A stretch of 35,208 nt of DNA. It comes from Acidobacteriota bacterium (GTDB taxonomy: Bacteria; Acidobacteriota; Blastocatellia; Chloracidobacteriales; Chloracidobacteriaceae). Below the pieces are notes generated by a model. It ran no database searches, was not told where the DNA came from, and was given only the letters and a program-made list of their open reading frames with translations. Below are positions 11,523 to 31,545 of this stretch, one piece after another (the stretch's first letter is position 1; each line of letters opens with the position of its first letter). The DNA lies in contig JACQXX010000023.1 in the NCBI GenBank assembly GCA_016208495.1, positions 1 to 35,208 on the forward strand, written 5' to 3'. The position numbers were made by a program, and so were the translations under genes.

Positions 11523-13115
11523 TTACTTTGTTTTTTGAACAAAGGCAATTTTTCTCCCGCCGTAATGGAAAAAGACTTTGAAGGGTTCAAGGAGTGGCGC
11601 CCCAACCACGCCAGTCAGGTACGGGTTGGAAAGTGCGCCTTCCCTGGCCTGGGAAAACAGGGCAGGTTGATTGGCAAATCGCTGTCCTCCAAATTCAATC
11701 CATTCAATTTGGCCGTTCCGGGTTTCAACCGTACCTCCGACGCCTCCTGATCTGCCAGACTCAGTTTTTCGGCTTTCGAGCAATTTGAATGATTCAACCG
11801 CCTGAGTCGTAAAAATAACCGTCGAATTGGCCCCGGTATCAATTTTAAAAACACCTTCCCGGTCACCTTCAAACCGGCATCTGACGTGGGGATGTCGGTC
11901 AATGATGAGCATTTCTCGCCACTCGGCCTGTGTTAACTCAAATTTTGCCGGGTTGTGAATTTCAATCTGGTTGGACTTTGAATCAAGTGCCACGATAGCT
12001 CGGGTGAAGAGGTCAAACCCACAGATGCCGGCGATTTTTTCACCAAAAATAGCGGACAACTGCCCAAAGTCATACTCCAGGTAGGTCGTGCGGTGAATTG
12101 AAATCGGACCGAGTTCAAACAGTTTCCCCTGACACAACGCCGACTGGGTATATCCGCCGACGCCACCCACGGGGATTTGTCCAAAAGTTGGCAACTCAAG
12201 CTCCCTGGCCACTGTCTTTGATATCACCATCGAACCCGCACCGCTATCAAAAATAAACCAGCCCACATCTTTCCCATTGATTCTTGGATGAACCAGATAA
12301 TGCCCGGTTCGAGTCCGCTTCATTTCGATAGTCGGGGATGCGCCTGACCAGGTCGTATCATCTGGAATGGTTTGCCGGTACTCAAATTGTTTACCGTTTT
12401 TCGTTTCCAGCGGGACCAGTGTTTTGAGTTTGTACGAGTTGACCAGCCCACGGATTGTATTTTCAACCAGGTGAGGGAAATTGATGCCCTGGACAGACTT
12501 GTACTCCTGTAACTTCCAGGTTTGTGGCGGACCAGCCACGCCATATTTGAAACTGGACGGTAGCCAGGTTTTTCGGTCAATGAGGACGGTGGCTTCGGTG
12601 AGGCCCTGCTTGATTTTTACTCCCAGGGCGATCTGCTCAGGTGTGGTTTGATCGGCAATCGTCCGGATTTCGACCTGGGCTTTTGGAGCAAGCCAGTGGA
12701 AGGTTCGCAACCAGTACTCAAGTTGTGAGGTTTCACGATCTTCGAGCGTTGTGGTATAGGCAAGCCCTGACCAATCGGTGGTCCAGGTCAGTTGACCATC
12801 AAACCCGGTACTCACAGGTAACCGACCGGAAAGCTGTTCCCGAAATTTACCATCTGGCGTCCAGGCAAGTTCAAATGTGTGGTCCACGCCAACGTAAACG
12901 GCCTCTCCCTTCATGACCAGCCCGCTGGAACTCTTTTCCAAAGCTTCGTAACTCACTGCCTGGCGGATGTTTGCCTGAATTTGATCAATCGTGAATGCCT
13001 GGGCTTGCCTGGTTTGAGCCAGCGTGAACTGGCTGCCGGCCAAAACCACCAGTCCAAAAATGAAGAGTCGGAACCAGGTCTGGACTTGACTGCGAACAGA
13101 TATTTTTTGGTGCAT
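11523..13115 (-). CDS. Secreted retropepsin-like aspartyl protease family protein
   Basis: The protein has 530 residues. A signal peptide (about residues 1-34, FIFGLVVLAGSQFTLAQ) is followed by an N-terminal half of about 230 residues that resembles the LolA-like domains seen beside such proteases. Two retropepsin-like repeats come next. The first has FDSGAGS with Asp290, the second has IDTGANS with Asp426. Two D-S/T-G motifs in one chain could let it act as a monomeric aspartic protease in the periplasm. Substrates are unknown. GGAAGGA lies about 6 nt upstream of the ATG. The TAA stop coincides with the target site of the insertion sequence to its right-hand end, but the protein end (QKTK) is unchanged. 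It may be transcribed after the GH13 gene, which lies 140 bp upstream across an 8-mer repeat element. Confidence 0.85.
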   Translation of the reverse strand: MHQKISVRSQVQTWFRLFIFGLVVLAGSQFTLAQTRQAQAFTIDQIQANIRQAVSYEALEKSSSGLVMKGEAVYVGVDHTFELAWTPDGKFREQLSGRLPVSTGFDGQLTWTTDWSGLAYTTTLEDRETSQLEYWLRTFHWLAPKAQVEIRTIADQTTPEQIALGVKIKQGLTEATVLIDRKTWLPSSFKYGVAGPPQTWKLQEYKSVQGINFPHLVENTIRGLVNSYKLKTLVPLETKNGKQFEYRQTIPDDTTWSGASPTIEMKRTRTGHYLVHPRINGKDVGWFIFDSGAGSMVISKTVARELELPTFGQIPVGGVGGYTQSALCQGKLFELGPISIHRTTYLEYDFGQLSAIFGEKIAGICGFDLFTRAIVALDSKSNQIEIHNPAKFELTQAEWREMLIIDRHPHVRCRFEGDREGVFKIDTGANSTVIFTTQAVESFKLLESRKTESGRSGGVGGTVETRNGQIEWIEFGGQRFANQPALFSQAREGALSNPYLTGVVGAPLLEPFKVFFHYGGRKIAFVQKTK

Positions 13116-23690: not shown

Positions 23691-25073
23691 TCACATCGTC
23701 ACGCAGGTACCACGTTTCAAAAATCGTCCATCCCCAGGCTTGCCTTTATATTCCCCATTCTCAATAACGACCTGTCCCCGTGAGAGAACGATATCAACCG
23801 CCCCTTTGAGGGTGACACCTTCATAGGCGCTGTAATCCACATTCATATGGTGGGTGGCCGCACTGATGGTTTGGCTCTTTTCCGGGTCAAAAATCACAAT
23901 ATCCGCATCTGAACCCACCGCAATGGTCCCTTTTTGTGGAAACAGTCCAAACATCTTGGCGGCGGCAGTTGATGTGAGTTCAACAAATCGGTTGAGGCTG
24001 ATACGATTTTCAGCCACTCCGCCGTTGTAAATCAGAGACATCCGATGTTCGACGCCGGGGGCCCCATTTGGGATTTTGGTAAAATCATGCAGGCCAAGTT
24101 CTTTTTGTTCTTTCATGCAAAATGGACAGTGATCAGTTGAAATCACCTGCAGGTCATCCATTTTCAACCCTTTCCATAATTCAGTCTGATTCCATTTCTC
24201 CCGAAGTGGTGGGGTCATGACATATTTGGCCCCATCAAAGCCTGGCTCATCATAATTATCAAGCGACAGGAACAGGTATTGTGGGCAAGTTTCAGCGAAA
24301 GCCAAAATGCCCCGGTCACGGGCTTCCCGGACCTGGTTCAGGGCATCGGCACACGATAAATGGACAATGTAGACCGGGGATTCAGCCATTTCAGCAATGG
24401 CAATTGCCCGGTGAACACCCTCAGCTTCAGCCCGTGTGGGACGGGTGAGCGCGTGGTATTTTGGTGCTGTGCGCCCATCAGCCAGGGCTCGCTTGATGAT
24501 CTCGTTGATAACCACACCATTTTCAGCGTGCATGCAAATCAAACCGCCACGTTCTCCGGCGGCTGTCATAGCCCGATAAATGGTGGCGTCGTCCACCAAA
24601 AAGACTCCCGGATAGGCCATAAAAAGCTTAAAGCTAGTCACCCCTTCATCCATAATCCGGTGCAATTCTGGGATTCGATGATCTTCGAGGTCAGTGCAAA
24701 TCAGGTGAAAGGCATAATCAATGGCAGTCTTCCCTTCGGCTTTGGCATGCCAGGTATCCAGGGCTTCCGTCAGGGATTGACCTTTGTACTGCACCGCAAA
24801 GTCAATGATGGTGGTTGTTCCACCAAAGGCAGCCGCCATTGTGCCGGTTCGAAAATCATCAGACGAAGATGTCCCACCAAACGGGAGTTCCATATGCGTA
24901 TGGGGGTCAATTCCGCCCGGAATCACCAGTTTGCCACTGGCGTCAATGACACAATCTGCCTCCAAATCGAGTGAAGCACCAATAATGGAAATTTTTCCAT
25001 TTTCAATCAGGATGTCGGCTCTGTAATCGTCAACTGCCGTTACAACGCGACCGTTTTGAATCAATGTTTTCAT
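23691..25073 (-). CDS. hydA: Dihydropyrimidinase (hydantoinase)
   Basis: The protein has 460 residues from the ATG at 25073 (MKTLIQNGRVV), which has GGAG 8-11 nt upstream. A longer frame to 25136 is rejected. It hydrolyses the ring of dihydrouracil, dihydrothymine or hydantoins in reductive pyrimidine breakdown, in the cytoplasm. The amidohydrolase metal site is intact: His58 and His60 in DPHTH, carboxylated Lys149 in TSFKLFMAYPG, His182 in MHAENG, His238 in HLSCADAL and Asp314 in STDHCPF. The C-terminal GDGRFLKRG is also typical. The neighbours are not other pyrimidine catabolic genes, so it may act alone here. Phenylhydantoinase or allantoinase-like activity is an alternative. Confidence 0.94.
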   Translation of the reverse strand: MKTLIQNGRVVTAVDDYRADILIENGKISIIGASLDLEADCVIDASGKLVIPGGIDPHTHMELPFGGTSSSDDFRTGTMAAAFGGTTTIIDFAVQYKGQSLTEALDTWHAKAEGKTAIDYAFHLICTDLEDHRIPELHRIMDEGVTSFKLFMAYPGVFLVDDATIYRAMTAAGERGGLICMHAENGVVINEIIKRALADGRTAPKYHALTRPTRAEAEGVHRAIAIAEMAESPVYIVHLSCADALNQVREARDRGILAFAETCPQYLFLSLDNYDEPGFDGAKYVMTPPLREKWNQTELWKGLKMDDLQVISTDHCPFCMKEQKELGLHDFTKIPNGAPGVEHRMSLIYNGGVAENRISLNRFVELTSTAAAKMFGLFPQKGTIAVGSDADIVIFDPEKSQTISAATHHMNVDYSAYEGVTLKGAVDIVLSRGQVVIENGEYKGKPGDGRFLKRGTCVTM

Positions 25074-25394
25074 GGGAGCTCTCCGTGAAATTATGGATGT
25101 GTTTAGGGTTACCGCACCTGTGGGAAGAAAAAACAATGGCTGGAATCACGTCCCCGGTTGTCGGATGAAGGAAGGACCAATTCTGGAAAGGATCTTTTGT
25201 AAATGGAAAGGATATGTTAGCGTCCTGGTATTCTACTCATTTGAACCACTTTCTGCATCAATCAAATCAACATTCAGTTCTGTTGGTGTCGGTTTGGCGA
25301 GGCAACCCATCCATAGAAGTATTGCGCTCATCGTCTTTTCAATCCAAACCCATCCCGTTCATTTTTCAAAGCTCGCAAGATGAGGAGACCACCC
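25074..25394. other. Divergent intergenic region with no clear signal
   Basis: About 320 bp lie between the dihydropyrimidinase gene and the nine-repeat secreted-protein gene. They must hold promoters for both, but none stands out. No gene is seen. Confidence 0.5.
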
Positions 25395-27236
25395 ATGATT
25401 CCACTTCTGAAATTCCACAAACCTTTGTATCAAATTCTGTTTATTTTGCTTTTCAGTTCTGCCCTGCAACCAACACCGGCATATGCTGGTGTTGGAACAT
25501 TTAGCGAATCCCACTCCTTGATTTCCCCTGTTTTGCAACAAAATCAGGACCGCCTGACGGTCGAAGAAAAACGAGCGTATGACAAAGGATATGGCCTTGG
25601 CCGGGATGACTATCGAGTCAATCGGAACCCGGATTACCAGCGTCACCGGCGTGAATTTACACCCCGGTATGAAACCATTTTTAGCGAAGGATATTCCGAC
25701 GGGTACGAAGCTCAACGAGATAAGGAAAGCGGATATACCAACTCACAAGGCGATGCGTATGAAAATGGATTTAAACGAGGGAAGCAGGATTACCGCGTAA
25801 ACAACAAATCCGATTATCGTCGGTACCGGGATGAATATTCCAGCCAAACTGAAACCTATTTTAAGCAAGGGTACGAGCGCGGGTATGCGGCTGAGCGTGA
25901 CCGGGGCGGGTCAATGAATGATACGCAACGGTCCTATTATGATTTTGGCTACAAAAAAGGCCGGGAAGATGCCCAATCCCGAGCGAGCCGAAATGCTGAC
26001 CGGTACCTGCGTGAATATGACAATAAATTCGAGCCCTTTTTCAAAAAAGGATATGAGGATGGATATAACCGGGTTGGTGGAGGTTCGGGGAGCCCCCTGC
26101 CCACTGATGAACGCCGGACCTATGACCTCGGGTATCAGCGAGGCCGTGAGGATTATCAGGCAAACCGAAGCCGAAACTATGAGCGGTATTCCTCGGAATA
26201 TAATCGCAAATATGAATCTTCGTTTCGCCAGGGGTATGAAGCCGGGTTTAAGGGCACTTCATCAGATAATACTGGTGGGTATTCAGGGACGGAACGGACT
26301 CATTACGAAAATGGGTTCGAGCGCGGAAAAGATGATTATAAAGCTGGTCGGACTCGCGACTATCGCCGCTATAACCGGGACTATGAACGCCGATATGAGG
26401 AAGCGTATCGTCGAGGGTATGAGAGTGGATATGACCAGGCAGCTCGAAATGACGAGCCTTTTAAAACCCGTGAACGTGAGGTTTACCTCCAGGGGGTCGA
26501 AATCGGCAAAACAGATTTTCGGACTGGTCGCACCAAAGACTTTCGCCGGCACAATCGGGAGTATGACCGCCAATACGAAGAGTACTTCAAGCGTGGGTAT
26601 GAAGAAGGGTATGACAAGGAAGCTTCAAAGACCGGTGGGGTTACAACCAATGACCAGTCCATGTATAACCGGGGGTATGGGTATGGACAAAGTGACTTCC
26701 GGGCAGGCCGGGGCAAGGATTTCCGCCGGTATCGAAATGACTATGATTCCAGGTTTGAGTCATCCTTCAAGCGTGGGTATGAAGAAGGGTACGAAGCTGA
26801 ATCCCGAAATACCACCAGTGGTCCAACTGAGCGCCAGGCATATGATCGAGGGTATCAGCGTGGGCAGCAGGATTTGCGCAACAATATGAGCCGGCTGTAT
26901 ACCCGATATTCCCGCGAATATGACTCTCGAACGGAAGAAAGTTTTAAACGGGGATACAGTGATGGATATAACTCACGGACCCGTGATGACGATGATGACG
27001 ATGGTCGCTTCCAGGTTCCGTCTGATCAAGTCCAAACTCCCACAGTCAAGTCTGCTTATGATGATGGACATAAGATCGGGAAGCAGGATCGCAAGGATGG
27101 ATTGAGTTTGGATTATCGGCGGCATCGTACTCGCTATGACAGCCGTTCAGAAAGCGAATTCAGGCGTGGGTATGAGGATGGATACAATAAAGTACCCAAA
27201 GGTCAGGGCAAGAAACGTGATGAGCGAAAAAAGTGA
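25395..27236 (+). CDS. Secreted protein of nine Tyr/Arg/Gly-rich repeats
   Basis: The protein has 613 residues from the ATG at 25395, with AGGAG 7 nt upstream. A signal peptide (MIPLLKFHKPLYQILFILLF...AYA-G) is followed by nine tandem repeats of about 58-62 residues that fill the protein. Each has the core YDxGYxxGRxDY..., then DYRRYxxEYDxRYExxF, then KRGYExGYD. The spacers between repeats are variable and Gly/Ser/Thr- or Asp-rich (one reads DDDDDD). The repeats are rich in Arg, Tyr, Asp, Glu and Gly and almost free of long hydrophobic stretches. The tail (GKKRDERKK) is basic. I recall single-copy versions of this repeat in hypothetical proteins of Acidobacteria, but none with a known function. 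An extracellular or periplasmic binding, matrix or condensate-forming role is a guess. Confidence 0.85.
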   Translation: MIPLLKFHKPLYQILFILLFSSALQPTPAYAGVGTFSESHSLISPVLQQNQDRLTVEEKRAYDKGYGLGRDDYRVNRNPDYQRHRREFTPRYETIFSEGYSDGYEAQRDKESGYTNSQGDAYENGFKRGKQDYRVNNKSDYRRYRDEYSSQTETYFKQGYERGYAAERDRGGSMNDTQRSYYDFGYKKGREDAQSRASRNADRYLREYDNKFEPFFKKGYEDGYNRVGGGSGSPLPTDERRTYDLGYQRGREDYQANRSRNYERYSSEYNRKYESSFRQGYEAGFKGTSSDNTGGYSGTERTHYENGFERGKDDYKAGRTRDYRRYNRDYERRYEEAYRRGYESGYDQAARNDEPFKTREREVYLQGVEIGKTDFRTGRTKDFRRHNREYDRQYEEYFKRGYEEGYDKEASKTGGVTTNDQSMYNRGYGYGQSDFRAGRGKDFRRYRNDYDSRFESSFKRGYEEGYEAESRNTTSGPTERQAYDRGYQRGQQDLRNNMSRLYTRYSREYDSRTEESFKRGYSDGYNSRTRDDDDDDGRFQVPSDQVQTPTVKSAYDDGHKIGKQDRKDGLSLDYRRHRTRYDSRSESEFRRGYEDGYNKVPKGQGKKRDERKK

Positions 27237-27505: not shown

Positions 27506-27988
27506 TTACTGACATCCACCACTGGCCATGGCGGCGGCTCCAGCGGCTGCAATTTCTTCAAAGCTTAAATCCTGAACATGGGTGGCAATTGCCCAGTGGT
27601 GACCAAATGGGTCAGAGACAATGCCATAGCGATCTCCCCAAAACATATCCGCCAGCGGCATGACCACCTTGGCGCCCGCCTCCACGGCCTGGTTGTAGGT
27701 TTCGTCTGCTTTTTCAACATATAAATGCATGGTGACCGACGTTCCACCTCGGGACACAGGTGAGAGACTCCCCATCTCTGGGAACTCATCACATAACATC
27801 AATGGTGAGTTCCCAATTCGTAATTCAGCGTGCATGATTTTTTCACCATCCGGTCCGGGCATGCAGCCCAGGACTTCAGCATTAAATGCCTTTTGGTAAA
27901 ATTCGATGGCCTGCTTTGCATTTTGGACAACGATGTGGGGGGTAATTGAGTGGAAACCCTCAGGGATTGGTTTGACTTGAGTTGACAT
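27506..27988 (-). CDS. VOC (glyoxalase/bleomycin-resistance) family protein
   Basis: The protein has 160 residues of the PhnB-like VOC type. The opening ITPHIVVQNAKQAIEFYQKA, then MHAELRIGNSPLMLCDE, then GGTSVTMHLYVEKADE and the closing DRYGIVSDPFGHHWAIATHV give the paired beta-alpha-beta units with possible metal ligands (His and Glu). Members include lyases, dioxygenases and resistance proteins. No substrate can be assigned. A good AAGGAG lies 6 nt upstream of the ATG. The C-terminal tail (EEIAAAGAAAMASGGCQ) is Ala-rich and unusual. It diverges from the LexA-like repressor gene, and the shared upstream region carries a palindrome that could serve both. Confidence 0.88.
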   Translation of the reverse strand: MSTQVKPIPEGFHSITPHIVVQNAKQAIEFYQKAFNAEVLGCMPGPDGEKIMHAELRIGNSPLMLCDEFPEMGSLSPVSRGGTSVTMHLYVEKADETYNQAVEAGAKVVMPLADMFWGDRYGIVSDPFGHHWAIATHVQDLSFEEIAAAGAAAMASGGCQ

Positions 27989-28065: not shown

Positions 28066-28109
28066 GGCAATATGGGGTCGTTAGATAACGCGGTAATTAT
28101 TACTCGGTG

Positions 28110-28730
28110 ATGAAAAATATGTCAATACCAAAAACTGATCTTCCGCTTGGTCGTAAAATTTACGAAATTCGTCTGGCCCAACACCTCACCCAAACCCAAC
28201 TTGCCAAAAAAGCCCGGTTAACTCAGGGAATGATCGCTCAAATCGAAAATGGGAAACGGTCTGTTTCAGATCGGACACTGATCGTTTTGGCCCAATCGCT
28301 TGGGGACGATTTTGGGGAGGACTGGTTAACCCCGTTTGTTTCGGCTTCTTCTTCAGTGGTCAACGTTGAAGGCGCCATTGCCGCCGGAAAACCAATTGAA
28401 CCGATTACCCAACACCTGGAATTGTCAATTCCAACTTCAATGCTGCGACGGGGACGCGAACATTTTGCCTTGCGTGTCACCGGGGATTCGATGATTGATG
28501 AGCACATCTGTGATGGAGATGTGGTCATTGCGGTCCGAACCCCAACCGCCGAAAATGGTCAGGTGGTGGTTGCACTGGTTGATGGAAATGCCACCCTCAA
28601 GAAGTTTTACAAGCAAAAAAACGCGATTGTGCTCCAACCCGCCAATCCCAATCATCCGCCGATGGTGTTTGACAAAAAAACGAATGTCGAAGTGCAAGGG
28701 GTTGTTGTGGGAATTGTCCGCAACCTCTAA
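28110..28730 (+). CDS. XRE-S24 (LexA/CI-like) self-cleaving repressor
   Basis: The protein has 206 residues from the ATG at 28110. A GTG at 28107 and an ATG at 28119 are other in-frame starts, and none has a clear ribosome binding site. Residues 15-70 form an HTH_3/XRE DNA-binding domain (LTQTQLAKKARLTQGMIAQI, then ENGKR). A linker leads to an S24 peptidase domain. The Ala92-Gly93 bond in AIAAGKP fits the LexA/CI/UmuD cleavage site. Ser127 in GDSM and Lys164 in TLKKFY fit the catalytic dyad. So it should repress its targets until RecA-stimulated self-cleavage after DNA damage. The XRE domain replaces the winged helix of true LexA, as in phage CI repressors. No phage genes are nearby, so it seems to be a stand-alone chromosomal regulator. 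A strong terminator follows. Confidence 0.9.
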   Translation: MKNMSIPKTDLPLGRKIYEIRLAQHLTQTQLAKKARLTQGMIAQIENGKRSVSDRTLIVLAQSLGDDFGEDWLTPFVSASSSVVNVEGAIAAGKPIEPITQHLELSIPTSMLRRGREHFALRVTGDSMIDEHICDGDVVIAVRTPTAENGQVVVALVDGNATLKKFYKQKNAIVLQPANPNHPPMVFDKKTNVEVQGVVVGIVRNL

Positions 28731-29109: not shown

Positions 29110-31545
29110 ATGAATTCAATGGTTCTTTTTTTTCAACAAACAGGCAGGTGTATTTTTTACGGGGTTTCCGTCCTGTTTTTGGTTTTGATTGGTTCAACTT
29201 CTGTTCTGGCCGATGAAAAACGCGGGACGCTTTCAGGCCGGGTCAGTGACTCAGGTGGAGGTGCTGTTGTCGGTGCCACGGTCACGCTCCGGCAATCAAC
29301 GGTCGGATTTGAGGTTTCGGCTCAATCAGATGCGAGCGGTACGTTTCAATTTACCGAACTGGTGCCCGGTGAATATTCACTCAGCGCCAAAGCTACAAAT
29401 TATGCGCTCAGTTCAAAGCCCATCACGATCAGCGAAGGGGCGGTTGCAAATCTGGATCTCATCCTGCAACCTGGTACTTTTACTGAAGACATTACCCTGG
29501 TAAGTGGTTCGATTGCTGGTGTGCCTGAAATCCTGCAACGTATTCCTGGAACTGTTGATATTTTGGAACCCAAAACACTTCAACAAAGCCGGCTCTTTAA
29601 TTTCAACGAAGCGCTCCGCAAAGTTTCTGGTATCAATGTTCGGGATGAAGAGGGCTTCGGCCTCCGACCAAACATTGGGATTCGAGGGTTGAATCCAACC
29701 CGCTCAACCAAGGTACTCTTACTCGAAGACGGTATTCCGCTGGCTTATGCGCCATACGGAGACAACGCTTCCTATTATCACCCCCCAGTAGAGCGCTTTG
29801 AAAGCATTGAGGTTTTAAAAGGCTCTGGACAAATCGTTTATGGTCCGGTCACCGTGGGCGGAGTTGTCAATTATGTGACACCAATGCCGCCGACCAAGCC
29901 GAGTGGTTCACTGATGTTGACAGGCGGAAACCGTGATTACTTCAACGGGATTGCCAACTATGGCGGAACGTGGGGAAATACCGGCTTTTTGGTTGATTAT
30001 ATGCGCAAGCAGGGTGAAGGCTCCCGGGTCAACTTGCGACACAAACTCAACGACCTGAATGTAAAACTGGTTACCACCTTGAATGCCCGAAATTTTCTGA
30101 CCTTCAAAGCCAATTATTATGGTGAAGACTCCCAGGTGACCTATTCAGGCTTGACCCTGAAAGAATTTCAGGATGATCCGCGCCAGAATCCATTCCAAAA
30201 CGACGCTTTTGAAATTGACCGGTTTGGTTTTTCAGGAACCCACAATTTCCTGATTACCAGTAATTTTGTGATGAACACAAATCTGTACGGGTCAATTTTT
30301 AAGCGCGACTGGTGGCGACAATCGAGCAATTCCACCCAGCGTCCCAACGATTCAGCCGACCCGGATTGTGGCGGATTACAAAATCTGAACACTGATTGTG
30401 GGAATGAAGGCCGCCTGCGTGAGTTTTATACCTGGGGAATTGCACCTCAGTTTCGGTTGAGCCATAACCTGTTTGGGATTCGCAACGAAGCGGACTTTGG
30501 TTTTCGAGCCCACTTTGAAACCCAGGATCGAATGCAACTCAATGGGGATTCTCCACGGGCCCGAACCGGAATCATCGTTGAAGACAACATCCGCAAAAAT
30601 AAGGCATTTTCCGGATACATTCAGAATCGTTTTATTCTTGGCAAATTTACGGTTACCCCTGGCGTTCGCATTGAAAAGATTCACTATGAGCGAACCAATA
30701 ATCTGGCCAACGCGGGAGCTGGCATCACTGGAAGCACGGATGTAACCCAGGTCATTCCAGGTTTGGGTGTGGCGTATGCCGTTAATGACCGGACAACCGT
30801 GTTTGCCGGTGTTCATCGCGGGTTTGCACCACCTCGCACGGAAGATATTATCAATAACACGACTGGCGGGGCGATTGACCTGGATCCGGAATTAAGCTGG
30901 AATTATGAAGCTGGAATTCGAAGCCTCCCCCTCCAGGGTCTGCGGTTGGATGCGGCCTATTTTCGAATGAATTATGAAAACCAGATTGTTCCAGCCAGTC
31001 TGGCTGGTGGCTCGGGGACAACGCTGACCAATGGTGGTGAAACACGCCATCAAGGCATCGAATTTAATGGTCGGCTTGATACCGGAACACTGCTGCGGTC
31101 CGAGCATAACTTCTTTGTTCGGTTCAACTATACTTATGTCGGCACGGCAGAATTTGTTGGCCGCCGGTTTAGTAATATTCCAGGGTTTAGCACCGTGAGC
31201 GTTTCTGGCAATCGCCTGCCATACTCACCCAACCATCTGGCCACAACCGGGTTTGGGTATTCGCATCAAAAGGGAATTGATGTGTTTGTGGAATCAGTCT
31301 ATGTGAGCGACCAGTTTGGTGATGATTTGAATACAATTGAGTCCTCAGCCGATGGTCAGCGGGGATTGATTCCGGGATATACAATTTGGAACGCGACGCT
31401 CAATTACCGGGCTGAACCGCTGCACTCAACTTTCTTCATTACCTGTAAGAACCTGCTTGATGACACATTCATCGTGGATCGGGCGCGGGGAATTTTGCCG
31501 AGTTCACCACGGCTGGTTCAGGCCGGGTTTAAGTGGAATTTTTGA
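29110..31545 (+). CDS. TonB-dependent outer-membrane receptor, FecA-like
   Basis: The protein has 811 residues. A signal peptide (about 1-35, ending VLADE) is followed by a carboxypeptidase-regulatory-like beta-sandwich (about 38-120, GTLSGRVSDSGGGAVVGATV). The plug (about 150-265) includes GFGLRPNIGIRGLNPTRSTK, LLEDGIPLAYAPYG, and VLKGSGQIVYGPVTVGGVVN. A 22-strand barrel follows and ends in a C-terminal Phe (FKWNF), the outer-membrane insertion signal. The plug resembles ferric-citrate/siderophore receptors, so uptake of a ferric chelate with TonB energy is the best guess. Because many Acidobacterial receptors of this build take up oligosaccharides, the substrate is not certain. AAGGAG lies 7 nt before the ATG. 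A promoter with an overlapping Fur-box candidate lies about 190 bp upstream. Confidence 0.93.
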   Translation: MNSMVLFFQQTGRCIFYGVSVLFLVLIGSTSVLADEKRGTLSGRVSDSGGGAVVGATVTLRQSTVGFEVSAQSDASGTFQFTELVPGEYSLSAKATNYALSSKPITISEGAVANLDLILQPGTFTEDITLVSGSIAGVPEILQRIPGTVDILEPKTLQQSRLFNFNEALRKVSGINVRDEEGFGLRPNIGIRGLNPTRSTKVLLLEDGIPLAYAPYGDNASYYHPPVERFESIEVLKGSGQIVYGPVTVGGVVNYVTPMPPTKPSGSLMLTGGNRDYFNGIANYGGTWGNTGFLVDYMRKQGEGSRVNLRHKLNDLNVKLVTTLNARNFLTFKANYYGEDSQVTYSGLTLKEFQDDPRQNPFQNDAFEIDRFGFSGTHNFLITSNFVMNTNLYGSIFKRDWWRQSSNSTQRPNDSADPDCGGLQNLNTDCGNEGRLREFYTWGIAPQFRLSHNLFGIRNEADFGFRAHFETQDRMQLNGDSPRARTGIIVEDNIRKNKAFSGYIQNRFILGKFTVTPGVRIEKIHYERTNNLANAGAGITGSTDVTQVIPGLGVAYAVNDRTTVFAGVHRGFAPPRTEDIINNTTGGAIDLDPELSWNYEAGIRSLPLQGLRLDAAYFRMNYENQIVPASLAGGSGTTLTNGGETRHQGIEFNGRLDTGTLLRSEHNFFVRFNYTYVGTAEFVGRRFSNIPGFSTVSVSGNRLPYSPNHLATTGFGYSHQKGIDVFVESVYVSDQFGDDLNTIESSADGQRGLIPGYTIWNATLNYRAEPLHSTFFITCKNLLDDTFIVDRARGILPSSPRLVQAGFKWNF

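Follow-up and report, generated by a model that had tools for sequence, protein, structure and literature searches.

The gene described here encodes a protein that is most safely stated to be an exported chain of nine hairpins, each of them probably folded according to a structural model. The protein belongs to a real, unnamed exported repeat family, which is spread more widely than the original prediction for this DNA could tell. As judged by sequence comparison, the family is new at the domain level: its module falls within no Pfam or NCBIfam family over cut-off and, in the searches made, has no match in the PDB.

The window is the whole stretch of DNA that was analysed, i.e., positions 1 to 35,208 (35,208 nucleotides) of contig JACQXX010000023.1 (GCA_016208495.1), forward strand; coordinates below refer to the window unless a locus or contig is named. 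The features of the gene are as follows.

25395..27236, + strand: gene for the nine-copy, apparently exported protein, 613 aa (translation; nine HMM domains)
25382..25387, + strand: Shine-Dalgarno-like GAGGAG, 7 nt before ATG 25395 (read from sequence)
25395..25487, + strand: putative signal peptide (residues 1-31), with cleavage presumed to follow AYA (read by eye)
25566..25721, + strand: hairpin copy 1 (HMM domain 1)
25746..25901, + strand: hairpin copy 2 (HMM domain 2)
25926..26081, + strand: hairpin copy 3 (HMM domain 3)
26109..26264, + strand: hairpin copy 4 (HMM domain 4)
26292..26447, + strand: hairpin copy 5, part of the AlphaFold2 pair model (HMM domain 5; model)
26472..26627, + strand: hairpin copy 6, part of the AlphaFold2 pair model (HMM domain 6; model)
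26652..26807, + strand: hairpin copy 7 (HMM domain 7)
26829..26984, + strand: hairpin copy 8 (HMM domain 8)
26985..27044, + strand: 20-residue linker, the longest, containing an Asp run and separating copies 8 and 9 (sequence)
27045..27200, + strand: hairpin copy 9 (HMM domain 9)
27201..27233, + strand: short Lys/Arg-rich C-terminal tail, by eye with no anchor (sequence)

The gene and its hairpin copies

The ATG at 25395, with GAGGAG placed 7 nt upstream of it, is preferred as the start codon over the ATG at 25380 of the ORF listing, which is in the same frame; the stop codon occupies 27234-27236. The N-terminus displays, by eye, the features of a Sec-type signal peptide, i.e., K6/K9, the hydrophobic stretch LYQILFILLFSSAL, and then A29-Y30-A31, on the basis of which the protein appears to be exported, as had been predicted. 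A sigma-70 promoter scan found none against 3.1 expected by chance, and neither an Rfam match nor a tRNA was found in the window.

A profile made from the copies recovers exactly nine domains in the window protein, totalling 590 bits, which is the number originally proposed. The repeat unit measures about 52 residues within a mature protein of 582, and the linkers are 7-9 residues long, except for the 20 residues between copies 8 and 9. Ungapped self-identity peaks at lag 60 with 24.3%, against a best value of 15.3% in 500 shuffles of the mature protein (lags 20-200). Among eight of the nine copies (copy 3 left out), pairwise identity ranges over 33-57% for protein and 42-63% for DNA. The mature protein contains 14.8% Arg, 11.3% Tyr, 10.8% Gly, 9.6% Asp, and 9.1% Glu, in agreement with the predicted richness in Tyr, Arg, and Gly, and has a pI of 9.1 and a charge of about +12. 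Ile, Leu, Val, and Met together reach 5.5%, whereas 17 further long ORFs in the window, some of which may not be genes, have 20.9-31.0%; the window protein contains neither Cys nor Trp. Thus, Tyr, Phe, and Gly seem to replace the aliphatic residues.

Conservation was read from a set of 29 copies drawn from eight proteins, the window protein included. Y5, G8, G12, D15, G42, and G46 are invariant in all 29; of these copies, 25 have Arg at position 26, 24 have Tyr or Phe at position 24, and 27 have Tyr or His at position 27. The turn of the hairpin is kept in all or nearly all copies of six of the eight proteins and is lost in the second copies of L023-L025. The net charge per copy lies between -2 and +5 across the set; the chain is rich in both charges, yet it is no strong polycation.

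In a tree of the 29 copies, 18 label changes by protein are counted, against a shuffled mean of 18.1, and recent copy expansion is therefore unsupported overall; the tree draws on few columns, and of its 26 inner branches, one is starred and 16 are open. The six copies of genome G012 group beyond chance (four changes against a shuffled mean of 5.6; 20 of 500 shuffles gave as few). Two copies from one protein differ as much as copies from different proteins do, yet the same positions are kept. The copies thus appear to be mostly old and divergent, and the retention of the same positions in such copies points to selection on each of them.

Predicted fold and searches against known families

Fold prediction, which had been proposed as a check, yielded a helical hairpin for each modelled copy. 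For window copies 5-6, modelled with AlphaFold2 on an alignment of 14 rows (the pair itself and 13 others, from the window and related loci only), the mean pLDDT was 90.5 and the pTM 0.51, with the other four models at 82.5-86.7; given this pTM, the relative placement of the two copies is unfixed. The predicted helices span residues 3-21, 28-34, and 37-57, followed by 63-81, 88-94, and 97-119, so that each copy comprises a helix of about 19 residues, then a short one of 7, and finally one of 21-23. G8 and G12 are located in the first helix, G42 and G46 in the second, and the DYRRY stretch in the turn region. When the full chain was modelled with AlphaFold2 without an alignment, the mean pLDDT was 42.2, and long single helices ran through several copies. 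Based on the pair model, each copy is probably a small, folded, tyrosine-cored helical hairpin.

A Foldseek search with the pair model returned no PDB match at E<=10; entries of the ribosome modulation factor (RMF) exist in the PDB (6h4n, 4v8g, 2jrm) and may be absent from the Foldseek copy. Against viral models, 17 weak rows were obtained, none at E<=0.001. The second of these is the RMF of Caulobacter phage CcrBL9, which has the highest probability in the list (0.57), an E-value of 4.0, and a TM-score of 0.70 by target length and 0.37 by query length.

Sequence searches likewise bear out the description of the repeat as uncharacterised, in that no named family matches it. The window protein matched no Pfam family at E<=1, including DUF3011 (PF11218) and Yae1_N / deca-GX3 (PF09811), and only one chain in the PDB, at E 0.89; the 29-copy profile found no PDB chain at E<=10. 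PHROGs gave scattered weak matches to 24 families (best E 0.018). NCBIfam returned a single weak match of the window protein, to RMF (NF011162, 15.6 bits against a cut-off of 40), which bridges the end of copy 4 and the start of copy 5. Copy by copy, too, the repeat matched no known domain whose function is established; the best library match of any copy detailed is again RMF, at 20.3 bits against 40, in a copy of one relative. No match to the Pfam RMF family (PF04957) over cut-off occurs in the window's own genome. In the open-access literature, no tyrosine-rich repeat of Acidobacteria was found, although the repeat may be published elsewhere, and nothing was found there that joins RMF with CrpP or their fold.

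Other families match a few of the 29 copies weakly, namely Alvin_2107 in four (best E 0.0052), DUF2799 (PF10973) in five (best E 0.0087), and Yae1_N in three. Yae1_N / deca-GX3 and DUF2799 proteins have helices with glycine at every fourth residue. The hairpin copies share such GX3-type helices; unlike members of these two families, the window protein matches neither of them at E<=1. According to PMC4523923, Yae1-Lto1 serve the cytosolic iron-sulphur machinery as adaptors. A second protein of the same genome (G000:C45:34400-35329; L027:6401-7429, - strand) has a signal-like start and GX3 helices and matches Yae1_N in six stretches (E 2.2e-12, 46.9 bits, over the cut-off of 27.5); it bears the motif of a cytosolic adaptor family. 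Its kin in genome G001 (L026:7044-7898) matches Yae1_N at E 4.5e-11.

Relatives, their architectures, and genomic context

Within its own genome (8.4 Mb, 177 contigs), the window protein retrieves, apart from itself, a single and very weak match on contig C45 (E 0.015), which is the different, GX3-helix protein described above; a broad profile scores that protein at 7.0e-5. Eight of 58 genomes searched as relatives, its own included, match at E<=0.01; one of them is G001 (E 0.0056), where the match is the kin of the C45 protein. The profile surveys covered the window's own phylum: among 396 Acidobacteriota genomes, the 29-copy profile detects 19 at E<=1e-4, and the broad profile, built from 20 copies chosen to include divergent forms found with the 29-copy profile, detects 40 at E<=1e-3, the own genome being included in both counts. 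Several of the 40 are marginal, and the number is possibly an undercount since at most 17 candidates were scored per genome. The expectation that such an exported protein would be new is narrowed by the recurrence of the module in these 40 genomes.

Genome-contig scans reach close relatives only. With the whole protein, 28 pattern matches were obtained, none of which was confirmed; with a five-row alignment, 211 were obtained and eight confirmed, all from Acidobacteria/Acidobacteriota, Blastocatellia or Pyrinomonadaceae MAGs. No match to the window protein was found at E<=1e-3 among plasmids (72,556 records) or phages (50,697 records), and in viral contigs, the five-row alignment gave 72 pattern matches with none confirmed. 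A mobile origin of the gene was rejected on these grounds, together with its GC3 of 0.46 against 0.49 and 0.51 in two neighbours.

The survey of copy number by HMM, which had also been proposed as a check, revealed arrays of five, six, or nine copies, or one to two copies beside other stretches. All 22 distinct proteins with an open frame that were read, including that of the window, have a signal-peptide-like N-terminus by eye; most of the weaker matches to the broad profile lie outside these 22. Array-only proteins are those of the window (nine copies), L059 (six), and L058 (five). In L021, L022/L062, L034/L063, and L037, a DUF3011 domain identified by Pfam and a Gly/Ala-rich segment precede one or two copies, with PF11218 E-values of 6.7e-14 (L021), 2.1e-14 (L022), 4.1e-14 (L034), and 8.5e-18 (L037); the L038 protein is identical to that of L037, and L036, L039, and L040 have the same DUF3011-type layout by eye. 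The L037 protein also matches the NCBIfam lectin model NF035930 (E 3.2e-11, 43.4 bits, below the cut-off of 100). According to passages of PMC5484111, a DUF3011-type egg lectin of the sea hare Aplysia kurodai binds galacturonic acid. These relatives of the hairpin are fused to DUF3011 and, like DUF3011 proteins, look exported; the window protein itself, unlike them, lacks DUF3011.

A further group (L023/L060, L024, L025, L061, L064/L035) combines two copies with a linker rich in Pro and a pair of similar stretches that look beta-rich; in L065, a single copy goes with a single stretch of this kind. The stretch reads SWxGRVD...VRKxxGRGxVxVxxQPS...YxIxIxW, occurs once or twice in L060, L061, L064, L065, and L023-L025, and matches no Pfam family over cut-off (L064 was scanned as its twin L035 and L060 as L023). 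Finally, L042-L046 each hold a single copy, preceded by a stretch rich in Arg/Gln/Asn or Gly/Tyr/Asn. At L041:1078-1959, a hairpin frame is broken by an internal TAA, and the segment after it presumably resembles a beta/gamma-crystallin.

The neighbours of the repeat gene in the window are as follows.

23691-25136: amidohydrolase
27506-27988: glyoxalase-like
28107-28730: HTH-S24
29110-31545: TonB receptor

Searches for the glyoxalase-like protein and the amidohydrolase covered four relatives (G001, G002, G010, G012), and eleven window proteins were compared with three stretches. The repeat gene is absent from all three stretches and, across the four relatives and the three stretches, never adjoins the window's neighbours; the amidohydrolase stands alone in two of the three. 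The glyoxalase-like/S24 pair may be partly kept in G001, where the glyoxalase-like protein lies within about 2 kb of part of an S24 protein (45% over 137 residues). The genes adjoining the five-copy array (alpha-2-macroglobulin-like, YdjC, EamA halves, PLD) differ from those adjoining the six-copy array (glycosyltransferase, alanyl-tRNA-editing-like, asparaginase). As neighbours are not shared between the repeat genes examined, the neighbourhood was set aside as a functional clue.

Several observations were made in passing. A peptide deformylase is encoded directly upstream of a two-copy protein at L060:5313-5804 and L064:5198-5710, and two adjacent short EamA-like half transporters lie near the five-copy gene (L058:7184-7950). 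In the window, an ORF at the end of the contig (34168-35133, - strand), which is possibly truncated there, combines WD40 with ankyrin repeats, and one at 11523-13115 (- strand) contains two aspartyl protease stretches (Asp_protease_2).

Candidate roles and kinship with RMF

We propose that the gene gives rise to an exported protein in which nine small folded domains would be strung like beads on flexible linkers. Each hairpin would consist of a first helix YxxGYxxGxxD, a turn region DYRRYxxEY, and a second helix FxxGYxxGY, in which the glycines may let the helices pack closely and Tyr/Phe may fill the core instead of aliphatic residues. The conserved Tyr-Arg-Arg-Tyr turn would be the likeliest binding site, and nine copies of it could confer avidity for a repetitive ligand outside the cytoplasm. 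Such a ligand would most likely be an acidic polysaccharide of the cell envelope or extracellular matrix, which the protein, through many weak sites, may hold as a cross-linker or scaffold. The computed basis of this proposal comprises the signal-like N-terminus, the nine copies, their conservation, the predicted fold, the signal-bearing relatives, and the DUF3011 fusion in relatives. Polysaccharide binding is the most likely role because of the multiplicity, the flexible linkers, the conserved Tyr/Arg turn, and the fusion of the module to a lectin-type domain, and we give the proposal as a whole somewhat less than an even chance. As single copies carry almost no net charge, we do not favour plain attraction to a polyanion.

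The rivals divide by what the hairpin is taken to be. The hairpins may descend from RMF or share its fold and retain nucleic-acid binding, in which case the protein would bind extracellular DNA or RNA. RMF (PF04957 / NF011162) resembles the predicted hairpin in having about 50 residues and two helices, and in both proteins each helix bears a motif of the form G-aromatic-x-x-G/A, which reads GYQAG and GWREA in RMF of E. coli and GYxxG and GYxxGY in the hairpin copies. NF011162 matches 12 of the 29 copies at E<=10, the best (E 3.7e-4) in register over residues 3-47, and PF04957 matches five (best E 0.033). Aligned by hhalign with eight RMF-like sequences, the copies are in register over 38 columns (P 0.0044), with a score of 16.2, whereas 100 column shuffles reached at most 12.4; with the eight-sequence RMF profile, each of the 29 copies beats at least 259 of 300 of its own shuffles, and 22 beat at least 287. 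The RMF comparison used three RMF-like places in phage CcrBL9 (L073-L075), which score 27.2, 23.2, and 22.7 bits against a cut-off of 27.9; one weak place in phage CcrBL10 (PF04957, E 0.01) was left out, and E. coli RMF searched against phage records gave 15 matches at E<=10, the best with E about 1 and none of note. The CcrBL9 model found by Foldseek, with its TM-score by target length, agrees with such kinship; its E-value does not. Nor do the library scores of the copies, all of which are under the cut-offs, or the hhalign probability of 7.8% with the eight sequences. With only the five gammaproteobacterial RMFs, hhalign placed the second helix of the copy on the first helix of RMF, and two of the detailed NCBIfam RMF matches cover just 11-12 residues; part of the RMF signal is therefore the GYxxG motif alone. 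Alvin_2107 and DUF2799 match about as weakly. Furthermore, in each of the three profile tests, the best shuffled control outscored all real sequences: the top scores were 17.2 shuffled and 11.7 real when the RMF profile was run on the copies, and 12.5 and 10.2 with one repeat profile and 14.4 and 8.7 with the other when these were run on the RMFs. Two of the eight RMF-like sequences do not stand out with either repeat profile. According to passages of PMC8126665, replacement of C29, W40, or W44 of RMF by Ala suppressed ribosome binding, and G16 was also needed. In the 29 copies, the Gly that aligns near G16 is invariant; no Cys-Pro is present in any, and Phe or Tyr occupies both Trp sites, except for WLKGW in one L024 copy. 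With this exception, the three residues named in those passages are without counterpart, and the hairpin is therefore not an RMF. In contrast to RMF, the copies lack the basic RMF N-terminus and the Cys-Pro-Tyr, and have about seven more residues between the helices (hand count); RMF is also a single-domain cytoplasmic protein acting on the ribosome, whereas the window protein carries nine copies behind a signal-like N-terminus, which argues against a cytoplasmic, ribosome-bound role. The general shape and motif are RMF-like and kinship is possible; that nucleic-acid binding has been kept along with it is considered unlikely.

The hairpins could also serve without a specific ligand, as a structural matrix protein that self-assembles or cross-links via its tyrosines outside the cell. 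The content of Tyr and Arg, the lack of Cys and Trp, the many copies, and the Arg/Gln/Asn- or Gly/Tyr/Asn-rich stretches before the single copy of L042-L046 are consistent with this; however, single-copy forms beside a lectin-type domain suit a binding module better, and a filler needs no conserved turn, so we rate it as a minority view of low probability. The original prediction suggested an unfolded, phase-separating Tyr/Arg repeat, in line with the Tyr/Arg/Gly-rich composition and with the poor pLDDT of the alignment-free model. The six columns that never vary across the 29 copies, the pLDDT reached with an alignment, and position-specific residues kept in spite of the low identity among eight of the nine copies run counter to it. 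Binding of nucleic acid or polysaccharide, which the original prediction also named, is possible. Because of the invariant positions, the confident (predicted) helical hairpin, and the near-neutral copies, a folded domain is favoured over a low-complexity phase-separating repeat, which we regard as very improbable. The probability beyond these four readings is left for roles not thought of.

Concerning the origin of the module, we tentatively suggest, as a possibility that is itself doubtful, that an RMF-type hairpin was put behind signal peptides in Acidobacteriota and became an exported recognition module, used singly beside lectin-type domains or multiplied up to nine per chain, with a Tyr/Gly core replacing aliphatics. 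In a large, poorly understood phylum, the hairpin recurs as a module that no Pfam or NCBIfam family covers over cut-off and that had no PDB match in these searches. A name for the family would apply to proteins in roughly one in ten of the Acidobacteriota genomes sampled (40 of 396, where only part of the proteins were read), and a domain with a Tyr/Phe/Gly core and few aliphatics, if so built, would be of interest to protein-folding researchers.
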